Source: Algoriphagus sp. (GTDB taxonomy: Bacteria > Bacteroidota > Bacteroidia > Cytophagales > Cyclobacteriaceae). From it: DNA of 32,107 nucleotides. Below, piece after piece: positions 7,517 to 16,033 of the stretch (position 1 is the stretch's first letter; each line of letters starts with the position of its first letter). A program made the position numbers and the translations under genes. The notes beneath the pieces are model-generated. The model did not search any database. It saw only the letters and a list, made by a program, of their open reading frames with translations, and had not been told where the DNA came from. Location: assembly GCA_017858365.1 (NCBI GenBank), contig JAFMBQ010000005.1, positions 1 through 32,107 on the forward strand. The letters are read 5' to 3'.

Positions 7517-9286
7517 CTAATTCTGGAAGCGGATTCCCATTAATTCCATCAACTTGTGTGCATTAAAACTGGGACAAGCTCCCGTTTTAAGTTTGTAATC
7601 GAAATCGATGGATTGATCATGAATCTCTGAATGGAAACTGAAGTTCTTCACCTTTGGGATCCGATTTTCTAAGTCTGCCAATTCAATATCGTGTGTACTG
7701 ATAATCCCCAAAGCCTTTGTATTTACCACCTGTCTAATCAAAGCCTCCGAGCCGGAGATCCGATCTTCGGTATTGGTACCCTTTAGGATTTCATCCAAAA
7801 GAAAAAAGATTTCTTCTCCGACTTCAATTCGGTCAATCAACGATTTGATTCGACTAAGTTCAGCATAAAAGGAACTGACACTTTCGCCAAGGTTATCAGT
7901 ATTTCGCATACTGGTGTAAAGTTGGAATTCCCCAAAACCAAAGGCTTTGGCAAAAGGTCTCAACCCTAGATTCACCAAAACACAATTAATCCCTAATGTC
8001 CTCATGAAGGTGGTTTTGCCACTCATATTCGCACCTGTAAGTAAAATAATACTAGAATCTGGGTTTTGAGAGAAATCATTTGGAATAGCAATTTCTGGGG
8101 AAATTAATGGATGTGAGATCTCAAATCCTTTAATTCCGCTTTCCACTTCAATGATTTCGCCTTTTCCTCCAAGCTCATATTGAAATGTACTTAGGGAAAT
8201 CAGCATTTCCCAAGTAGCTAATCGTTCGGGAAATTCTGAAACAAGCTCCCCATACTTACTTTTCCATTTTTGCAAGCGAATGTAAAGCAACAAATCAGTC
8301 CAGAAGAATAGGTTAATAGGAATATAAAGAAGGTTCATCCGATTCTGAATCCAAAGTCCCAACCGGTCAAGCTCCTCCAACAATACCGATGCTTTGGCGT
8401 TAGTTTCCAAAAATCCTGCTGTAGCATTTCGCAATTCCTCGCTCCGAAATTCTTGTTTTTCAATCTCCGCCAGCCAATATCGATAGGTTTTTAACTGATT
8501 TCTGGAAGGAATTTCCTCCCCGGCTTTTTTTAAGGATTGGAATACAACTCCCAAAAGTCCCATTCCAAGCAATACCCAAACGCCATAAAAGCTGGCAGGT
8601 ATCATTCCAACATTAGCTAGTACAGATACTATAATTCCTCCGATCGGGCCAATCCATGCAAATGGAATAAGCCAGGATTTTATTTGATCATTTTGTTTCA
8701 GCCATTTGATCCAAGAGTTAATCGATTTTTCATCCCGATAAAAAGCTAATCCTACGGACTCCATTGCCTGAAGAAATTCGGGCTTAGCAGCCAACTCATC
8801 TATCGCAGAGCGAAGATTTGATGCTTTTCTTAACTCAAATTCCGAAGTAATTAGTCTAGAAAGTTTATTCTTTCCCTCTTTCGAGACAGTATGGTTAAGC
8901 AATTGAAATAAGGAATGATCTCCAAAGAGATCCAAATCGTTAGAAAATGGATGGGTTTTGCTTTGAAATTCCAAGCCTGGCTCAAACGATTTCAATTTTC
9001 TGGCCTTTCTCAATTCTCGATTGCTTTCCATTTTTTCCAAAGCAAAATAGATTGCTTCCTGATCTTTCAGCAGATTGTACTTTGAAACCAGAAACACAAA
9101 TCCAGCCCCAGTCGCAAAAAAAAGAACAAACCACACTGGACTCTCGGAAATACCTAAAACAAAAAATCCAATTATCCCCAAAAAAGAAAATATCCTGAAA
9201 ATTGAAAGAGAAGAAGTTTTTCTTTTCAGTTCCCCCAATTTTTCCGGAAGCTGTTCACTGCTAAAATCAAATTCCTTCATCCTCAA
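7517..9286 (-). CDS. Membrane-anchored MutS-family ATPase (MutS-related protein)
   Basis: Walker A LLTGANMSGKTTFMRTLG, Walker B FFLLDEILKGTNTEDR, ISTHDIELADL; two N-terminal hydrophobic pairs (FSFLGIIGFFVLGISESPVWFVLFFATGAGFVFLV; WIGPIGGIIVSVLANVGM...GVWVLLGMGLLGVVF). Confidence 0.9.
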   Translation of the reverse strand: MRMKEFDFSSEQLPEKLGELKRKTSSLSIFRIFSFLGIIGFFVLGISESPVWFVLFFATGAGFVFLVSKYNLLKDQEAIYFALEKMESNRELRKARKLKSFEPGLEFQSKTHPFSNDLDLFGDHSLFQLLNHTVSKEGKNKLSRLITSEFELRKASNLRSAIDELAAKPEFLQAMESVGLAFYRDEKSINSWIKWLKQNDQIKSWLIPFAWIGPIGGIIVSVLANVGMIPASFYGVWVLLGMGLLGVVFQSLKKAGEEIPSRNQLKTYRYWLAEIEKQEFRSEELRNATAGFLETNAKASVLLEELDRLGLWIQNRMNLLYIPINLFFWTDLLLYIRLQKWKSKYGELVSEFPERLATWEMLISLSTFQYELGGKGEIIEVESGIKGFEISHPLISPEIAIPNDFSQNPDSSIILLTGANMSGKTTFMRTLGINCVLVNLGLRPFAKAFGFGEFQLYTSMRNTDNLGESVSSFYAELSRIKSLIDRIEVGEEIFFLLDEILKGTNTEDRISGSEALIRQVVNTKALGIISTHDIELADLENRIPKVKNFSFHSEIHDQSIDFDYKLKTGACPSFNAHKLMELMGIRFQN

Positions 9287-11312: not shown

Positions 11313-12137
11313 TCACTTTGATTGATGGACTACACGCTGAGGGAATGGAATTTCAATTTCATGCTTTTCGAATTCGGTATTTATAGCTTCCATAGTATCA
11401 AAATAGACAGGCCAAAGTTCAGCAGCATTTGACCAAGCTCGAACGACAAGATCAAGCGAACTATCTCCAAAATTATTCAATGCTACAAAAGGCGCAGGAT
11501 CTTCCAGCACACGTGGATCATTAGCTAAAATATTTAAAATGATTTCTTTTGCCTGTTTGATATTTGTACCGTAGGCAACACCCACCGTAATTTCTGTTCT
11601 TCTATTCTCTTGCGTACTCATATTGATAATATCCGAGTTGGCAAGATTTCCATTTGGGATAATGACTTCCCTATTGTCAAAGGTCATTAGATGAGTATAT
11701 AGAATCTGAATTTTAGATATTTTCCCAGTGTGTCCTTGACCTACGATGACATCGCCTACCCTAAATGGCTTAAATGCTAATATCAATAAACCACCGGCGA
11801 AATTTGAAAGCGAACCTTGAAGTGCCAAACCTATCGCAAGACCTGCTGCTCCGAAAATAGCTAAGAAAGAGGTAACAGGTACTCCAATAATTGCTGCTAC
11901 ACCTACAAAGAGGACAATGAATAAAATTACCTTAGTAAAAGAATAGACAAATTCATTTAATGAAGGACTGTCTTCACGCTTATCGAGAAAATTTCTTAAG
12001 CCTTTTAACACCCTAACGATTATAAATTTTCCTACGAAGTAGAAGAAAATTGCATATAGAATGGATGGTATAACTTGATAGGCTAACTCTATTGCTTGTT
12101 TGAGAATAGCGTCATAAGTTTCTGGTGAAATTTCCAT
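11313..12137 (-). CDS. Small-conductance mechanosensitive channel (MscS family)
   Basis: TM segments plus GAAGLAIGLALQGSLSNFAGGLLILAFKPFRVGDVI (MscS pore/beta domain) and IIPNGNLANSDIINMS. Confidence 0.95.
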   Translation of the reverse strand: MEISPETYDAILKQAIELAYQVIPSILYAIFFYFVGKFIIVRVLKGLRNFLDKREDSPSLNEFVYSFTKVILFIVLFVGVAAIIGVPVTSFLAIFGAAGLAIGLALQGSLSNFAGGLLILAFKPFRVGDVIVGQGHTGKISKIQILYTHLMTFDNREVIIPNGNLANSDIINMSTQENRRTEITVGVAYGTNIKQAKEIILNILANDPRVLEDPAPFVALNNFGDSSLDLVVRAWSNAAELWPVYFDTMEAINTEFEKHEIEIPFPQRVVHQSK

Positions 12138-12158: not shown

Positions 12159-12863
12159 TTAAACTATGATTAATACCTGCCATCGGAATGCCCAATGCCA
12201 AGTGAGTTGAAAGTCTTTTATTCCAGCCTCGTCCAAAATCCTCTCCCAGTCTGCTCTCGAAAAAGCTCTGAGAACGGAAAGTGGTCCATCATTTTGGACC
12301 ATCGGTGATTTGCTAAACAGCTTAGTAAGTATCTTGATACTATGGTAAGCTATGGGATTTCGATGCAAATCATTGATGACTATACCGAGGTTAGATTTCA
12401 ATTTTAACCCCTTCAAAAGCTGCACAAGCTCCGAATCAGTAAAATGATGCGTGAATAAGGTGCAAGTACAAACATCCACTTTGCGCTCCAAAAAATCCGG
12501 AGAGAAAATATTTTGAACAGTAAAAGTTACATTTTTTAATTCAGCCAGCCGAATTTTAGCCAATTCAATGATGTTTGGATTTGCATCAATCCCCTCAAAA
12601 TTGACTTTTTTTCGCTTATTTATAGCCCAATCATGCATCACCCGCATCATATCTCCTCCGCCACAACCGATATCTGCAATACTATATTCTTCTTGAGGAT
12701 GTGCGTTGAAAATCTGCTTGAGCCCTCCGGTAGTTACTTGGTTTCCACCTAGTAATTTATTGATGGTTTTGAGTTCTTTGAGCGTTTGGGCCAGCTCTTC
12801 CCCTGAGCATTCCAAGTCATCCATTAATTCTTTTTCAAAACTCCGCTGGGAAAAATTACTCAT
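12159..12863 (-). CDS. Class I SAM-dependent methyltransferase, adjacent to a type III PKS
   Basis: SAM motif I ADIGCGGGDMMRVM; 4-nt ATGA overlap with the upstream type III PKS gene. Confidence 0.88.
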   Translation of the reverse strand: MSNFSQRSFEKELMDDLECSGEELAQTLKELKTINKLLGGNQVTTGGLKQIFNAHPQEEYSIADIGCGGGDMMRVMHDWAINKRKKVNFEGIDANPNIIELAKIRLAELKNVTFTVQNIFSPDFLERKVDVCTCTLFTHHFTDSELVQLLKGLKLKSNLGIVINDLHRNPIAYHSIKILTKLFSKSPMVQNDGPLSVLRAFSRADWERILDEAGIKDFQLTWHWAFRWQVLIIV

Positions 12864-13939
12864 CGTTTTTCGAGGTGAAGCGTTTCTAAAGTAAGTCCCG
12901 GGCCAAACCCCAAGGCAAGAATATCACCTGAAATCTCAGGATCTGCTAAAAATCGATGTAATACAAAAAGGATTGTAACTGAAGACATGTTGCCAAAATT
13001 CTTGAGCACATCCAACGCATGTTTATTAGCCTCAACCGGAATTCCAAAAGCTTCCTGGACCTTCTGCAAAATTTGTTTTCCACCAGGGTGAATAGCAAAG
13101 TTTTTAATTTTTGACAAATTGAATTTCTCCTCAAAAACCCCTTTCAACCGACCTATACCCTGATCAAGGAGTGCAGGAACGTATTTACTCAGTTGCATCT
13201 CGAATCCAAAATCACCTATTCCCCAGGCCATATCACCTTCTCCCTCTCGAATGACTTGGCTCAAATACGATTTGATTTTAAGGCCTTTGTCTGAATTCAT
13301 TACCAAAGCAGCTGCGGCGCCATCTGCAAATAGTGAATTTGCCAAAAGATTATCTTCGATGTATTCTTTTTGGAAGTGAATCGTACACAACTCCACTGTA
13401 ACTACTAACACTTTTGCATCAAGCTCGGCATGAAGAATCTTATCTGCAAGCTTCAAACCCGTAAACGCAGCATAGCAACCCATAAAATGGATACAATAGC
13501 GCTCCACTGCATCTGAAAGGCCCAGAGTTTTCATTAATTCCAATTCTACTCCCGGGGCGACCATACCTGTGCAAGACACTAGGATCAAATGGGTGATTTG
13601 ATCAGCTGTAATATTGGATTTCACCAGACACGCTCTAGCTGCTTCCTCACAAAGCTTTGGAGCCTCCGCTCGAAAAACTTCCATTCTGGCTTTGGTCCCG
13701 GGAAATGGCTCTAAGTTTTCTGACTTCGGGAAAAATGAATAGTCCTCATGAGTCTCTTTTTCAAAGTCTGTAAGTACACTATGCCGGGAAGAAATCCCTG
13801 ATTTCTTATACAGAAAATTCAGCTTTCTGGCCTCATTATCTTCAAGTTGATGAGCTGCCTGCATAAAATTCGCGATGGAGGACTGTTCGATTGGAGAACC
13901 GGGATTAGCCAGTCCGATGCTTATTATGCTCGAATTCAT
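12860..13939 (-). CDS. Type III polyketide synthase (chalcone synthase-like)
   Basis: CHS-fold with candidate catalytic Cys (HFMGCYAAFTGLK), His (FAIHPGGKQILQ) and Asn (NFGNMSSVTILFVL); C-terminal GFGPGLTLE loop. Confidence 0.96.
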   Translation of the reverse strand: MNSSIISIGLANPGSPIEQSSIANFMQAAHQLEDNEARKLNFLYKKSGISSRHSVLTDFEKETHEDYSFFPKSENLEPFPGTKARMEVFRAEAPKLCEEAARACLVKSNITADQITHLILVSCTGMVAPGVELELMKTLGLSDAVERYCIHFMGCYAAFTGLKLADKILHAELDAKVLVVTVELCTIHFQKEYIEDNLLANSLFADGAAAALVMNSDKGLKIKSYLSQVIREGEGDMAWGIGDFGFEMQLSKYVPALLDQGIGRLKGVFEEKFNLSKIKNFAIHPGGKQILQKVQEAFGIPVEANKHALDVLKNFGNMSSVTILFVLHRFLADPEISGDILALGFGPGLTLETLHLEKR

Positions 13940-14030
13940 TAGATCAAGTTAAACGAATATTTCTAAATTGTGGGAACTCTGTTACAACCTTCTTGCCACG
14001 ATAAGGTTATCACAAGCATTAATCCAGACT

Positions 14031-14927
14031 ATGATCACTAGCTCTTCCATCAAGCATCTTCGAATCCCTTTTTCTCTTTTCTTGATGCCTGTTTTCTTTT
14101 TTGCTCTAGCACTGACTCCCAATCTCAATGAATCCAGATTGCTTTGGGTGTTTCTTTCGCTCCATTTATTTCTATACCCCTCCAGCAATGGTTACAATAG
14201 CTATTTTGACAAAGACGAAGAGAGCATAGGTGGATTAAAAACCCCTCCAAAAGTCACCAAAGATCTTTATTGGCTGTCTTTGATTTTCTTCATCATCGCC
14301 ATTGGTCTAGCTGGTTTGATCAATTTCAGCTTCGCTTCCATGATTATACTCTATGGATTGGTGAGCATGGCTTACTCACATCCCATGGTCCGGATCAAAA
14401 AGTACCCTTGGTTGAGCTGGCTGATTGCTGGATTCTTTCAGGGCTATTTTACTTTTGCCATGGTCTATGCAGGTTTAAGCAACTTAGGCTGGGATGTGAT
14501 GCTCAAGCCTCATATTCTAATCCCCGGCTTATTGACTAGTCTGATGCTTTGGGGAAATTATCCCCTCACTCAAGTCTATCAGCATGGAGAGGATTCACGT
14601 CGTGGAGATCGGACCTTAAGTTTAGTACTGGGAATCAAAGGGACTTTTTCATTTTCAGCATTGGTATTTGGGCTATCAGGCGCTGCTTTTATCTGGTATT
14701 TTATTAGCAAAAACCAAGAAGCTCTTTGCTGGGTATATTTAGCTGCGATGGCACCGATTTTACTTTTCTTTTTGATTTGGTTTAGTTTTATCCGAACCAA
14801 TCCTGTTAAGTATGCAAACTACTCATGGGCGATGGGAATGAATACGATTTCTGCAATATGCCTTAATGCATTTTTCATCTATTATTTCTTAGAAAATACT
14901 CAAATCATGCAAGTGTTTGGCTATTAA
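14031..14927 (+). CDS. UbiA-family prenyltransferase
   Basis: Polytopic membrane protein with Asp-rich motifs NSYFDKDEESIGG and EDSRRGDRTLSLVLG. The ORF track start at 13968 is upstream; ATG at 14031 gives MITSSSIKHLRIPFSLFLMP. Confidence 0.88.
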   Translation: MITSSSIKHLRIPFSLFLMPVFFFALALTPNLNESRLLWVFLSLHLFLYPSSNGYNSYFDKDEESIGGLKTPPKVTKDLYWLSLIFFIIAIGLAGLINFSFASMIILYGLVSMAYSHPMVRIKKYPWLSWLIAGFFQGYFTFAMVYAGLSNLGWDVMLKPHILIPGLLTSLMLWGNYPLTQVYQHGEDSRRGDRTLSLVLGIKGTFSFSALVFGLSGAAFIWYFISKNQEALCWVYLAAMAPILLFFLIWFSFIRTNPVKYANYSWAMGMNTISAICLNAFFIYYFLENTQIMQVFGY

Positions 14928-16033
14928 AAAGGCTGCCCGTGGGTGTTCTTGATTATTTTCCGAGTCACAAATGGGACATGCTGAATCAAATTTCTGGCAA
15001 AGATGGAGGAAAAATCTGAGCCAAATAGTAGTTGAACGGTCCTACCTACCTTTAACCGAGTTTCAAAGATGCGCCGCCAATTCTTCTCATAGCTTTGCTC
15101 TATTTCTGGTCTTGTTTTATTCGTTAAAATTGCCTCCGCCGCCAATTTACCTGCCTGAATAGCCATAGCCATTCCATTTCCACAAAGTGGAGTAATCAGT
15201 CCTGCGGAATCTCCCGCCATCAGAATATGATTTTCTACTGGCTTCTTAGCTTCAAAATTAATCTCATTGATGACCTCAGGTTTCTCAAAAAGAAACTCGC
15301 TAGAGGTAAATAACTCCTTCAAATGCGGATTTTTCCATAGAATAGCCTCCTCCATCTCCGGGATCGATCCATAGGTTCGCAATTGATCTCTACTGCCCAG
15401 GTAGCAGAGGTTTGCTTTCCCATCTTCGATAGCATTGATACCACAATACCCTCCTGAAAAATTGTGAAGGGCTACTGCTTTTCGATCAATAGCTGCCTTG
15501 ATATGGTATTTGACACCGATATATGGACTTCTTTTTTGGATAAAATCTCTGGCAAGAACTTTATCGAGCTTGGAGCGCTTCCCAAATGCCCCTATGACAT
15601 TTTTTGCTTGCAATTCGCTCCCATCAGAAAGCTGGAGAATAAACTGATCATTCTGAAATTCGATTTGCTCCACTTGAATTCCTGTATAGATTTCAGCCCC
15701 TTTTTCAACCCCTTTGTGCACTAAAAAATCGTCAAAAACATAGCGACTAAGACCAAAGCCTCCTAGATCCAAGGGGACGGTGGTTTGGCTTCCTTTTGTA
15801 TCTGAAAAAGTGAATCGATCAATCTGGGGTAATTCATGCGCCTCAGGGAACAAGCCTTCTCTTTTTAAAAACCCTTTAACTTCATTCGAAATATATTCGC
15901 CACATACACGGTGAAAAGGATACGTTTTTTTTTCAATCAATAAAACCTGTTTCCCCTCTTTCGCAAGCAAATTTGTAGCTATCAACCCAGCCAATCCTCC
16001 CCCAATAACTACATTTTCAAAACTCTTTAACAC
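14924..16033 (-). CDS. FAD-dependent oxidoreductase (geranylgeranyl-reductase/flavin monooxygenase-like)
   Basis: Rossmann VIGGGLAGLIATNLLAKEGKQVLLIEK, PFHRVCGEYIS, MAGDSAGLITPLCGNGMAMAIQAGKLAAEAI. Convergent 4-nt overlap with the UbiA gene. Confidence 0.9.
   Translation of the reverse strand: MLKSFENVVIGGGLAGLIATNLLAKEGKQVLLIEKKTYPFHRVCGEYISNEVKGFLKREGLFPEAHELPQIDRFTFSDTKGSQTTVPLDLGGFGLSRYVFDDFLVHKGVEKGAEIYTGIQVEQIEFQNDQFILQLSDGSELQAKNVIGAFGKRSKLDKVLARDFIQKRSPYIGVKYHIKAAIDRKAVALHNFSGGYCGINAIEDGKANLCYLGSRDQLRTYGSIPEMEEAILWKNPHLKELFTSSEFLFEKPEVINEINFEAKKPVENHILMAGDSAGLITPLCGNGMAMAIQAGKLAAEAILTNKTRPEIEQSYEKNWRRIFETRLKVGRTVQLLFGSDFSSIFARNLIQHVPFVTRKIIKNTHGQPF

Follow-up and report, generated by a model that had tools for sequence, protein, structure and literature searches.

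The four genes of a compact locus in Algoriphagus sp., which encode a type III polyketide synthase (PKS), a methyltransferase (MT), a UbiA-superfamily prenyltransferase and an FAD-dependent oxidoreductase, belong together. We consider it fairly probable that together they specify a short biosynthetic route whose end product is a phenolic lipid that carries a prenyl group. The locus lies in the window, which is the whole stretch of 32,107 nucleotides that was analysed, and its features are listed below.

12159-12863, minus strand: MT, class I SAM-dependent methyltransferase (Pfam Methyltransf_31, E=4.4e-12)
12860-13939, minus strand: type III PKS (PF00195, E=8.5e-31; PF02797, E=1.1e-14)
13940-14033, no strand: divergent intergenic region of 94 nt between the PKS and UbiA genes (direct sequence reading and the UbiA start)
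Likely 14034-14927 (listed open reading frame 13968-14927), plus strand: UbiA-superfamily membrane prenyltransferase (PF01040, E=4.8e-15)
14924-16033, minus strand: FAD-dependent oxidoreductase (PF01494, E=4.9e-13)

The list of open reading frames and the Pfam profiles bear out the four genes, strands and family assignments given in an earlier note on this DNA. The sequence also confirms the ATGA overlap between the PKS stop and the MT start, and the 4-nt overlap of the convergent 3' ends of the UbiA and FAD genes. The open reading frame of UbiA reaches back to TTG 13968. Its orthologues align only from Met23 of that frame, so the start is probably ATG 14034. The 94-nt region between the PKS and UbiA genes is a probable shared promoter region. 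Dozens of genomes share the four-gene arrangement, which is therefore not due to chance. An MscS gene (11313-12137), a nitroreductase gene and a DUF4953 protease gene are frequent neighbours within Cyclobacteriaceae. None of the three was detected at the loci of groups outside this family, and they are therefore not counted as parts of the locus.

The earlier note proposed co-occurrence in related genomes as a check, and the genes were found together in most loci. The MT gene is near the PKS gene in 70 of 79 retrieved loci, and the UbiA gene adjoins the PKS gene in 60 of the 79 (Cyclobacteriaceae, Sphingobacteriales and Chitinophagales). Among 297 Cytophagales genomes, the UbiA clade is present in 235 and the PKS in 237, with 231 genomes that carry both and 56 that carry neither (phi 0.90, Fisher P about 1e-48, uncorrected for the relatedness of the genomes). 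The PKS and UbiA genes co-occur even when they are unlinked; some complete genomes assembled as a single contig have both, separated by hundreds of kb to megabases. Nineteen genomes that lack both genes were checked; the FAD gene is absent from all 19 and the MT gene from 18. In two genomes with both PKS and UbiA (G052 and G180), neither an MT nor an FAD gene can be recognised as a homologue of those in the locus, and a third (G005) has no such MT; these cases count against the proposed pathway.

The PKS exhibits both the N- and C-terminal domains of the chalcone/stilbene synthase superfamily and is the only gene of that family found in the genome. The catalytic contexts of Cys, His and Asn reported in the earlier note are confirmed on alignment, where the triad Cys155/His284/Asn317 is invariant across 19 homologues. 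F204 is also retained, and W239 is kept in 18 of the 19. In ArsB, one Trp (position 281) decides resorcinol over pyrone by favouring aldol condensation (PMC5916927; PMC6274091). W239 appears to be the counterpart of this residue, as placed by its spacing to the reference residues W230/Q238/L245 of MMAR_2474 (PMC5916927) and not by alignment to ArsB. The solved structures nearest to the PKS are Steely1, Ectocarpus PKS III and Pks18; ArsC (3vs8) did not surface in the PDB search with the PKS. DpgA (3,5-dihydroxyphenylacetyl-CoA synthase) was rejected as an identity for the PKS, at 116.9 bits against the NCBIfam cut-off of 425. The PKS would be best described as a putative long-chain alkylresorcinol synthase. 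The MT belongs to Pfam families PF13847/PF13649 and is predicted to place a methyl group on the phenol made by the PKS, by O- (or C-) methylation.

The UbiA protein matches the superfamily profile (PF01040) at 56.0 bits against a cut-off of 34.2. Its AlphaFold model (pLDDT 93.0, pTM 0.88) matches best the archaeal UbiA homologues 4tq3/4tq4/4od4, and structures of the UbiA superfamily fill the top 14 places among its fold matches. The earlier note described both Asp-rich motifs. Two acidic motifs are indeed present and conserved, but neither is canonical in an alignment of 20 orthologues. Motif 1 is N77-xxx-D81-x-D83, in which the third Asp is shifted forward compared with the canonical NxxxDxxxD. 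Motif 2 is Q205-xx-E208-D209-xxxx-D214, in which Gln occupies the expected first Asp position of the canonical DxxxD. The residues of both motifs are invariant in the 20 orthologues, and the protein belongs to a distinct clade of the superfamily. A search of the PDB by sequence, profile included, gave no match to UbiA. Because of this result and the non-canonical motifs, any donor and acceptor proposed for the enzyme are tentative. A search for UbiA among plasmids found nothing at E 0.01. Two polyprenyl diphosphate synthases encoded elsewhere in the genome are candidate suppliers of the donor.

The earlier note also considered that the UbiA and FAD proteins might be menaquinone or bacteriochlorophyll enzymes that are unrelated to the PKS. 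The genome encodes five UbiA-family genes, among which the UbiA of the locus scores the weakest. On the same profile this UbiA reaches 58.6 bits, compared with 107.7 for a separate MenA-like gene on contig C52, which rules out the UbiA of the locus as the MenA of this genome. The NCBIfam matches of the locus UbiA to menaquinone, carotenoid and chlorophyll enzymes are also far under the cut-offs. Curated cut-offs likewise exclude the FAD protein as a reductase of bacteriochlorophyll or menaquinone synthesis, since it scores below those for both MenJ and BchP.

We infer the substrates, step order, product and role of the locus as follows. The PKS would elongate a fatty acyl starter by three malonyl units, and an aldol condensation would then close the ring to give a 5-alkylresorcinol. 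The MT would add a methyl group onto a hydroxyl, the FAD enzyme would hydroxylate the ring to give a methoxy-hydroquinone that could be oxidised to a quinone, and UbiA would attach a prenyl group, O- or C-linked, from a prenyl diphosphate. The sequence given here for the last three steps is tentative. The product would probably reside in the membrane as a lipid able to act in redox reactions or as an antioxidant. The product class proposed in the earlier note, a prenylated, methylated and oxidised polyketide aromatic, appears to be supported, and it agrees with what is known of characterised clusters that have the same composition.

An accessory membrane quinone is a possible product. A more specific reading, in which a prenylated benzoquinone serves beside menaquinone in respiration like the polyketide quinones of mycobacteria and Streptomyces, seems unlikely to us. 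Polyketide quinones made by operons of PKS, MT and oxidoreductase genes function as alternative carriers of electrons (PMC9927152; Anand, 2015, cited in PMC10896814), a basic physiological role would be in line with the near-core distribution in Cytophagales, and prenylation would be expected to add membrane anchoring. However, the genome encodes MenD and the MenA-like protein, so the organism probably makes menaquinone in any case, and no respiratory genes are linked to the locus in the stretches examined. To our knowledge, the chemotaxonomy of Cytophagales reports menaquinone and not benzoquinone, which also counts against this reading.

The closest known system to the Algoriphagus locus, likened by gene content alone, is agq, a cluster from Actinoplanes missouriensis whose products are alkyl-O-dihydrogeranyl-methoxyhydroquinones (Awakawa et al., 2011, cited in PMC10896814 and PMC3569393). 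According to these citing accounts, an alkylresorcinol-making type III PKS acts first in agq and its product is then prenylated and hydroxylated; methoxylation is read from the product name, and citation of the prenyltransferase among membrane-bound enzymes supports its being of the UbiA type. The enzyme classes of the agq type, UbiA included, are all present in the Algoriphagus locus as far as gene content goes, although the two hosts belong to different phyla. The agq-like loseolamycin cluster of Micromonospora endolithica also has genes for a UbiA-family prenyltransferase, an MT and a type III PKS close together, but its redox gene is annotated as acyl-CoA dehydrogenase where Algoriphagus has the FAD gene (PMC7587189). 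The srs (Streptomyces griseus) and pkq (Mycobacterium smegmatis and Streptomyces MNU77) systems combine a type III PKS, an MT and an oxidoreductase to make methylated phenolic lipids or polyketide quinones. Compared by description, they differ from Algoriphagus in that no prenyltransferase is reported in the publications consulted. Our literature search for a product of a Bacteroidota type III PKS and UbiA found none.

A planctomycetal operon of PKS, MT and oxidoreductase genes yields pentadecyl- and heptadecylresorcinols and, through the partner enzymes, a methylated product (PMC10896814). This operon and the cyanobacterial hierridin genes hidABC have three core enzyme types in common with the Algoriphagus locus, but they are without a UbiA gene and their gene order is different. 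The Algoriphagus locus contains this hid/planctomycetal type of module, as judged against the Paludisphaera operon (L098) and the loci of Ignavibacteria (L063-L069). All three genes of the Paludisphaera operon are homologous to those of Algoriphagus (PKS 34%, FAD 26% and MT 25% identity). PKS-MT-FAD is a widespread three-gene module that occurs with no UbiA gene linked to it in Ignavibacteria, Deinococcus, Alpha- and Gammaproteobacteria, and Planctomycetota. UbiA would then be a Bacteroidota add-on that prenylates the ring. The presence of the UbiA-free module in many phyla might instead mean that UbiA acts elsewhere and is merely co-inherited, while PKS-MT-FAD makes a non-prenylated methoxy-alkylhydroquinone of the hierridin or srs kind. 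UbiA is unlinked to PKS in some families, and some PKS-bearing genomes, including a few Cytophagales, are without this UbiA. We regard this as quite improbable, since UbiA and PKS presence is concordant in 287 of the 297 Cytophagales genomes and the two genes are divergent neighbours in 59 loci. A sample of 160 Bacteroidota genomes also exhibits no UbiA-positive genome without PKS (PKS in 27/27 UbiA-positive genomes versus 77/160 overall, P about 1.5e-10).

The FAD protein belongs to the flavin monooxygenase/geranylgeranyl-reductase-like superfamily (PF01494). The best folds for its model (pLDDT 91.6) are flavin halogenases, 3nix, the geranylgeranyl-reductase-like 3oz2 and 3-hydroxybenzoate 6-hydroxylase. 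It is without the usual DG motif and has AFGKRS in place. The missing motif and the halogenases among the best folds mean that hydroxylation by this enzyme is not certain. A flavin-dependent halogenase was rejected as an identity despite these top folds, as the WxWxIP motif is absent from the translation. The enzyme most likely oxidises the polyketide ring, as a putative ring hydroxylase, because PKS-MT-FAD occurs without UbiA and the planctomycetal operon yields alkylresorcinols and a methylated derivative. A geranylgeranyl-reductase-like role, in which the enzyme reduces double bonds of the prenyl chain, as the dihydrogeranyl group in the product of agq might suggest, and does not hydroxylate the ring, is favoured by 3oz2 and by TIGR02032 (geranylgeranyl reductase superfamily) as the best NCBIfam match (E=2.4e-31), but it is very doubtful given a score of 109.5 bits under the cut-off of 158.8, top folds that are halogenases and hydroxylases, and the same FAD family beside PKS and MT without a linked prenyltransferase.

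Type III PKS clusters are usually regarded as accessory secondary metabolism. Compared with agq-type systems, the near-core status in Cytophagales and the divergent UbiA are unexpected. The earlier note placed the novelty in the product rather than in the gene set, which is fair, but the main surprise is the near-core distribution, which is not visible from one window. The four genes are found in most Cytophagales genomes, which suggests that the product belongs to the basic membrane biology of this order and is not a rare antibiotic. Here a whole bacterial order has a PKS and one particular UbiA paralogue as near-core genes, which stay together even where they are far apart, which predicts a general, undescribed lipid or quinone of Cytophagales. 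In its boldest form, which we hold with little confidence, most Cytophagales may make an undescribed prenylated polyketide quinone or hydroquinone that is constitutive in the membrane, where it would complement menaquinone as a further lipid-soluble redox carrier or as an antioxidant. The prenylating enzyme would then represent a new UbiA clade, with altered Asp motifs, that acts specifically on type III polyketides. The locus would also supply a new clade of aromatic prenyltransferases.

Four genes make up the locus in Algoriphagus sp.:

12159-12863, minus strand: class I SAM-dependent methyltransferase (MT)
12860-13939, minus strand: type III polyketide synthase (PKS)
13968-14927, plus strand: open reading frame of the membrane prenyltransferase (UbiA)
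14924-16033, minus strand: FAD-dependent oxidoreductase (FAD protein)

These positions, proposed in the earlier note, are correct, as are the ATGA common to the PKS stop and MT start and the 4 nt overlap of the convergent UbiA and FAD genes. The families of the four proteins are borne out by Pfam. The UbiA start was corrected to ATG 14034 by orthologue alignment, which sets the divergent PKS-UbiA intergenic region at 94 nt. The window also carries, at 7517-9286, a MutS-like ATPase reading frame (589 aa) that scores far under the MutS and MutS2 cut-offs and is a shortened or divergent MutS relative.

The PKS and UbiA occur together across Cytophagales. Among 297 genomes, UbiA was identified in 235 and the PKS in 237; comparison of the two lists places both in 231 genomes and neither in 56, with UbiA without the PKS in four and the PKS without this UbiA in six (Fisher P ~1.7e-48, phi 0.90, kinship ignored). 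Among 160 Bacteroidota genomes, 77 carry the PKS, including all 27 UbiA carriers (P ~1.5e-10). The two genes are distant in several complete or near-complete genomes:

Positions of the two genes in four such genomes.
G049: 3.11 and 2.54 Mb
G241: 1.13 and 0.48 Mb
G280: 4.04 and 2.71 Mb
G005: 0.55 and 4.08 Mb

One family from the Cytophagales search (f16) likewise exhibits clustered PKS-MT-FAD genes with UbiA at a separate site. The FAD protein was found in none, and an MT of this type in one, of 19 checked genomes with neither PKS nor UbiA. G005 has no recognisable MT; genomes G052 and G180 have neither a recognisable MT nor a clear FAD orthologue. A lone UbiA orthologue (G078:C7:25809-26672, E 9e-106) was observed in a genome that is 99% complete and has no PKS, MT or FAD, and represents either loss in progress or a UbiA with another role.

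Gene order was compared among 79 loci from a scan of GTDB genomes:

FAD-UbiA-PKS-MT with UbiA divergent: 47 loci
UbiA-PKS-MT-FAD: 7 loci
UbiA-PKS-MT, FAD not in the stretch: 5 loci
UbiA downstream on the same strand: 1 locus

The placement of FAD varies from group to group and its linkage is kept.

The Cys/His/Asn triad recognised earlier in the PKS (C155, H284 and N317) proved invariant in 19 homologues, as is the gatekeeper F204, and W239 is kept in 18 of the 19. A Trp in this region switches between resorcinol and pyrone in characterised bacterial enzymes, namely ArsB W281 and MMAR_2474 W230 (PMC5916927; PMC6274091), to which W239 was matched by spacing only. No other chalcone/stilbene synthase-type gene was found in the genome. 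The closest solved structures to the window PKS by profile search are Steely1, the Ectocarpus enzyme and Pks18, and a PKS tree places it in a supported, mostly UbiA-linked group with deeper branching unresolved.

The two acidic motifs recognised earlier in UbiA are invariant in 20 orthologues, though neither has the canonical form. The first reads NxxxDxD, and the second has Gln at the expected first Asp of DxxxD and an extra Asp downstream. A PDB sequence search with this divergent protein gave no match. The top fold matches of its high-confidence structure model (pLDDT 93.0, pTM 0.88) are archaeal UbiA homologues, including a GPP-bound Archaeoglobus structure. Of five UbiA-family genes in the genome, one is MenA-like, and the window UbiA has the lowest Pfam-profile score.

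The best-scoring model for the FAD protein is the geranylgeranyl reductase (GGR) superfamily, under its cut-off. The structure model (pLDDT 91.6) resembles flavin halogenases, a GGR-like protein and aromatic hydroxylases. The halogenase WxWxIP motif is absent from the sequence, which reads AFGKRS at the position of the hydroxylase DG motif; a pattern of AxG and then K, R or Q is common in this family. A role in ring oxidation is the more parsimonious, since the same protein accompanies the PKS and MT where UbiA is unlinked. A relative with 37% identity on Hymenobacter swuensis plasmid pHsw1 (L087:6944-8128) has an isonitrile synthase and a TauD-type dioxygenase as neighbours and no annotated PKS in that stretch; here the flavoprotein family belongs to a different pathway.

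Outside Bacteroidota, the PKS-MT-FAD module is present in Ignavibacteria/Melioribacter loci and is plasmid-borne in Paludisphaera, Deinococcus, Paracoccus, Falsirhodobacter, Mesorhizobium and Psychrobacter; the window UbiA gave no match in the plasmid collection searched. In one of the six Cytophagales genomes that have the PKS but not this UbiA (L089:10971-16444, genome G032), the FAD-MT-PKS operon is followed by SDR, FabA-like and ketosynthase genes, which suggests dedicated acyl starter supply. Novosphingobium plasmid pLA3 (L096:2563-6206) has an ACP and a ketosynthase before the type III PKS, an FAD monooxygenase after it and a divergent MT nearby, and is another starter-supply arrangement.

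Planctomycetal operons of the PKS-MT-oxidoreductase module produce C15 and C17 alkylresorcinols and, with the MT and oxidoreductase, methylated products too (PMC10896814). The hid, srs and pkq clusters are related to the window locus in gene content. The precedent for prenylation is agq of Actinoplanes missouriensis, as far as it is described where cited in PMC10896814 and PMC3569393; the comparison with it covered gene content. The loseolamycin cluster also has a UbiA gene (PMC7587189), and one cyanobacterial hierridin-like cluster encodes a prenyltransferase. Given these related clusters and precedents, the window locus is a variation on an already known cluster type.

The proposed pathway would make an alkylresorcinol that is methylated, hydroxylated and prenylated, not necessarily in that order. 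Genes for two polyprenyl diphosphate synthases are present in the genome. It also has menaquinone genes, so the locus product would be extra to menaquinone. Its near-core distribution suggests that this product may act in the membrane or in redox chemistry.
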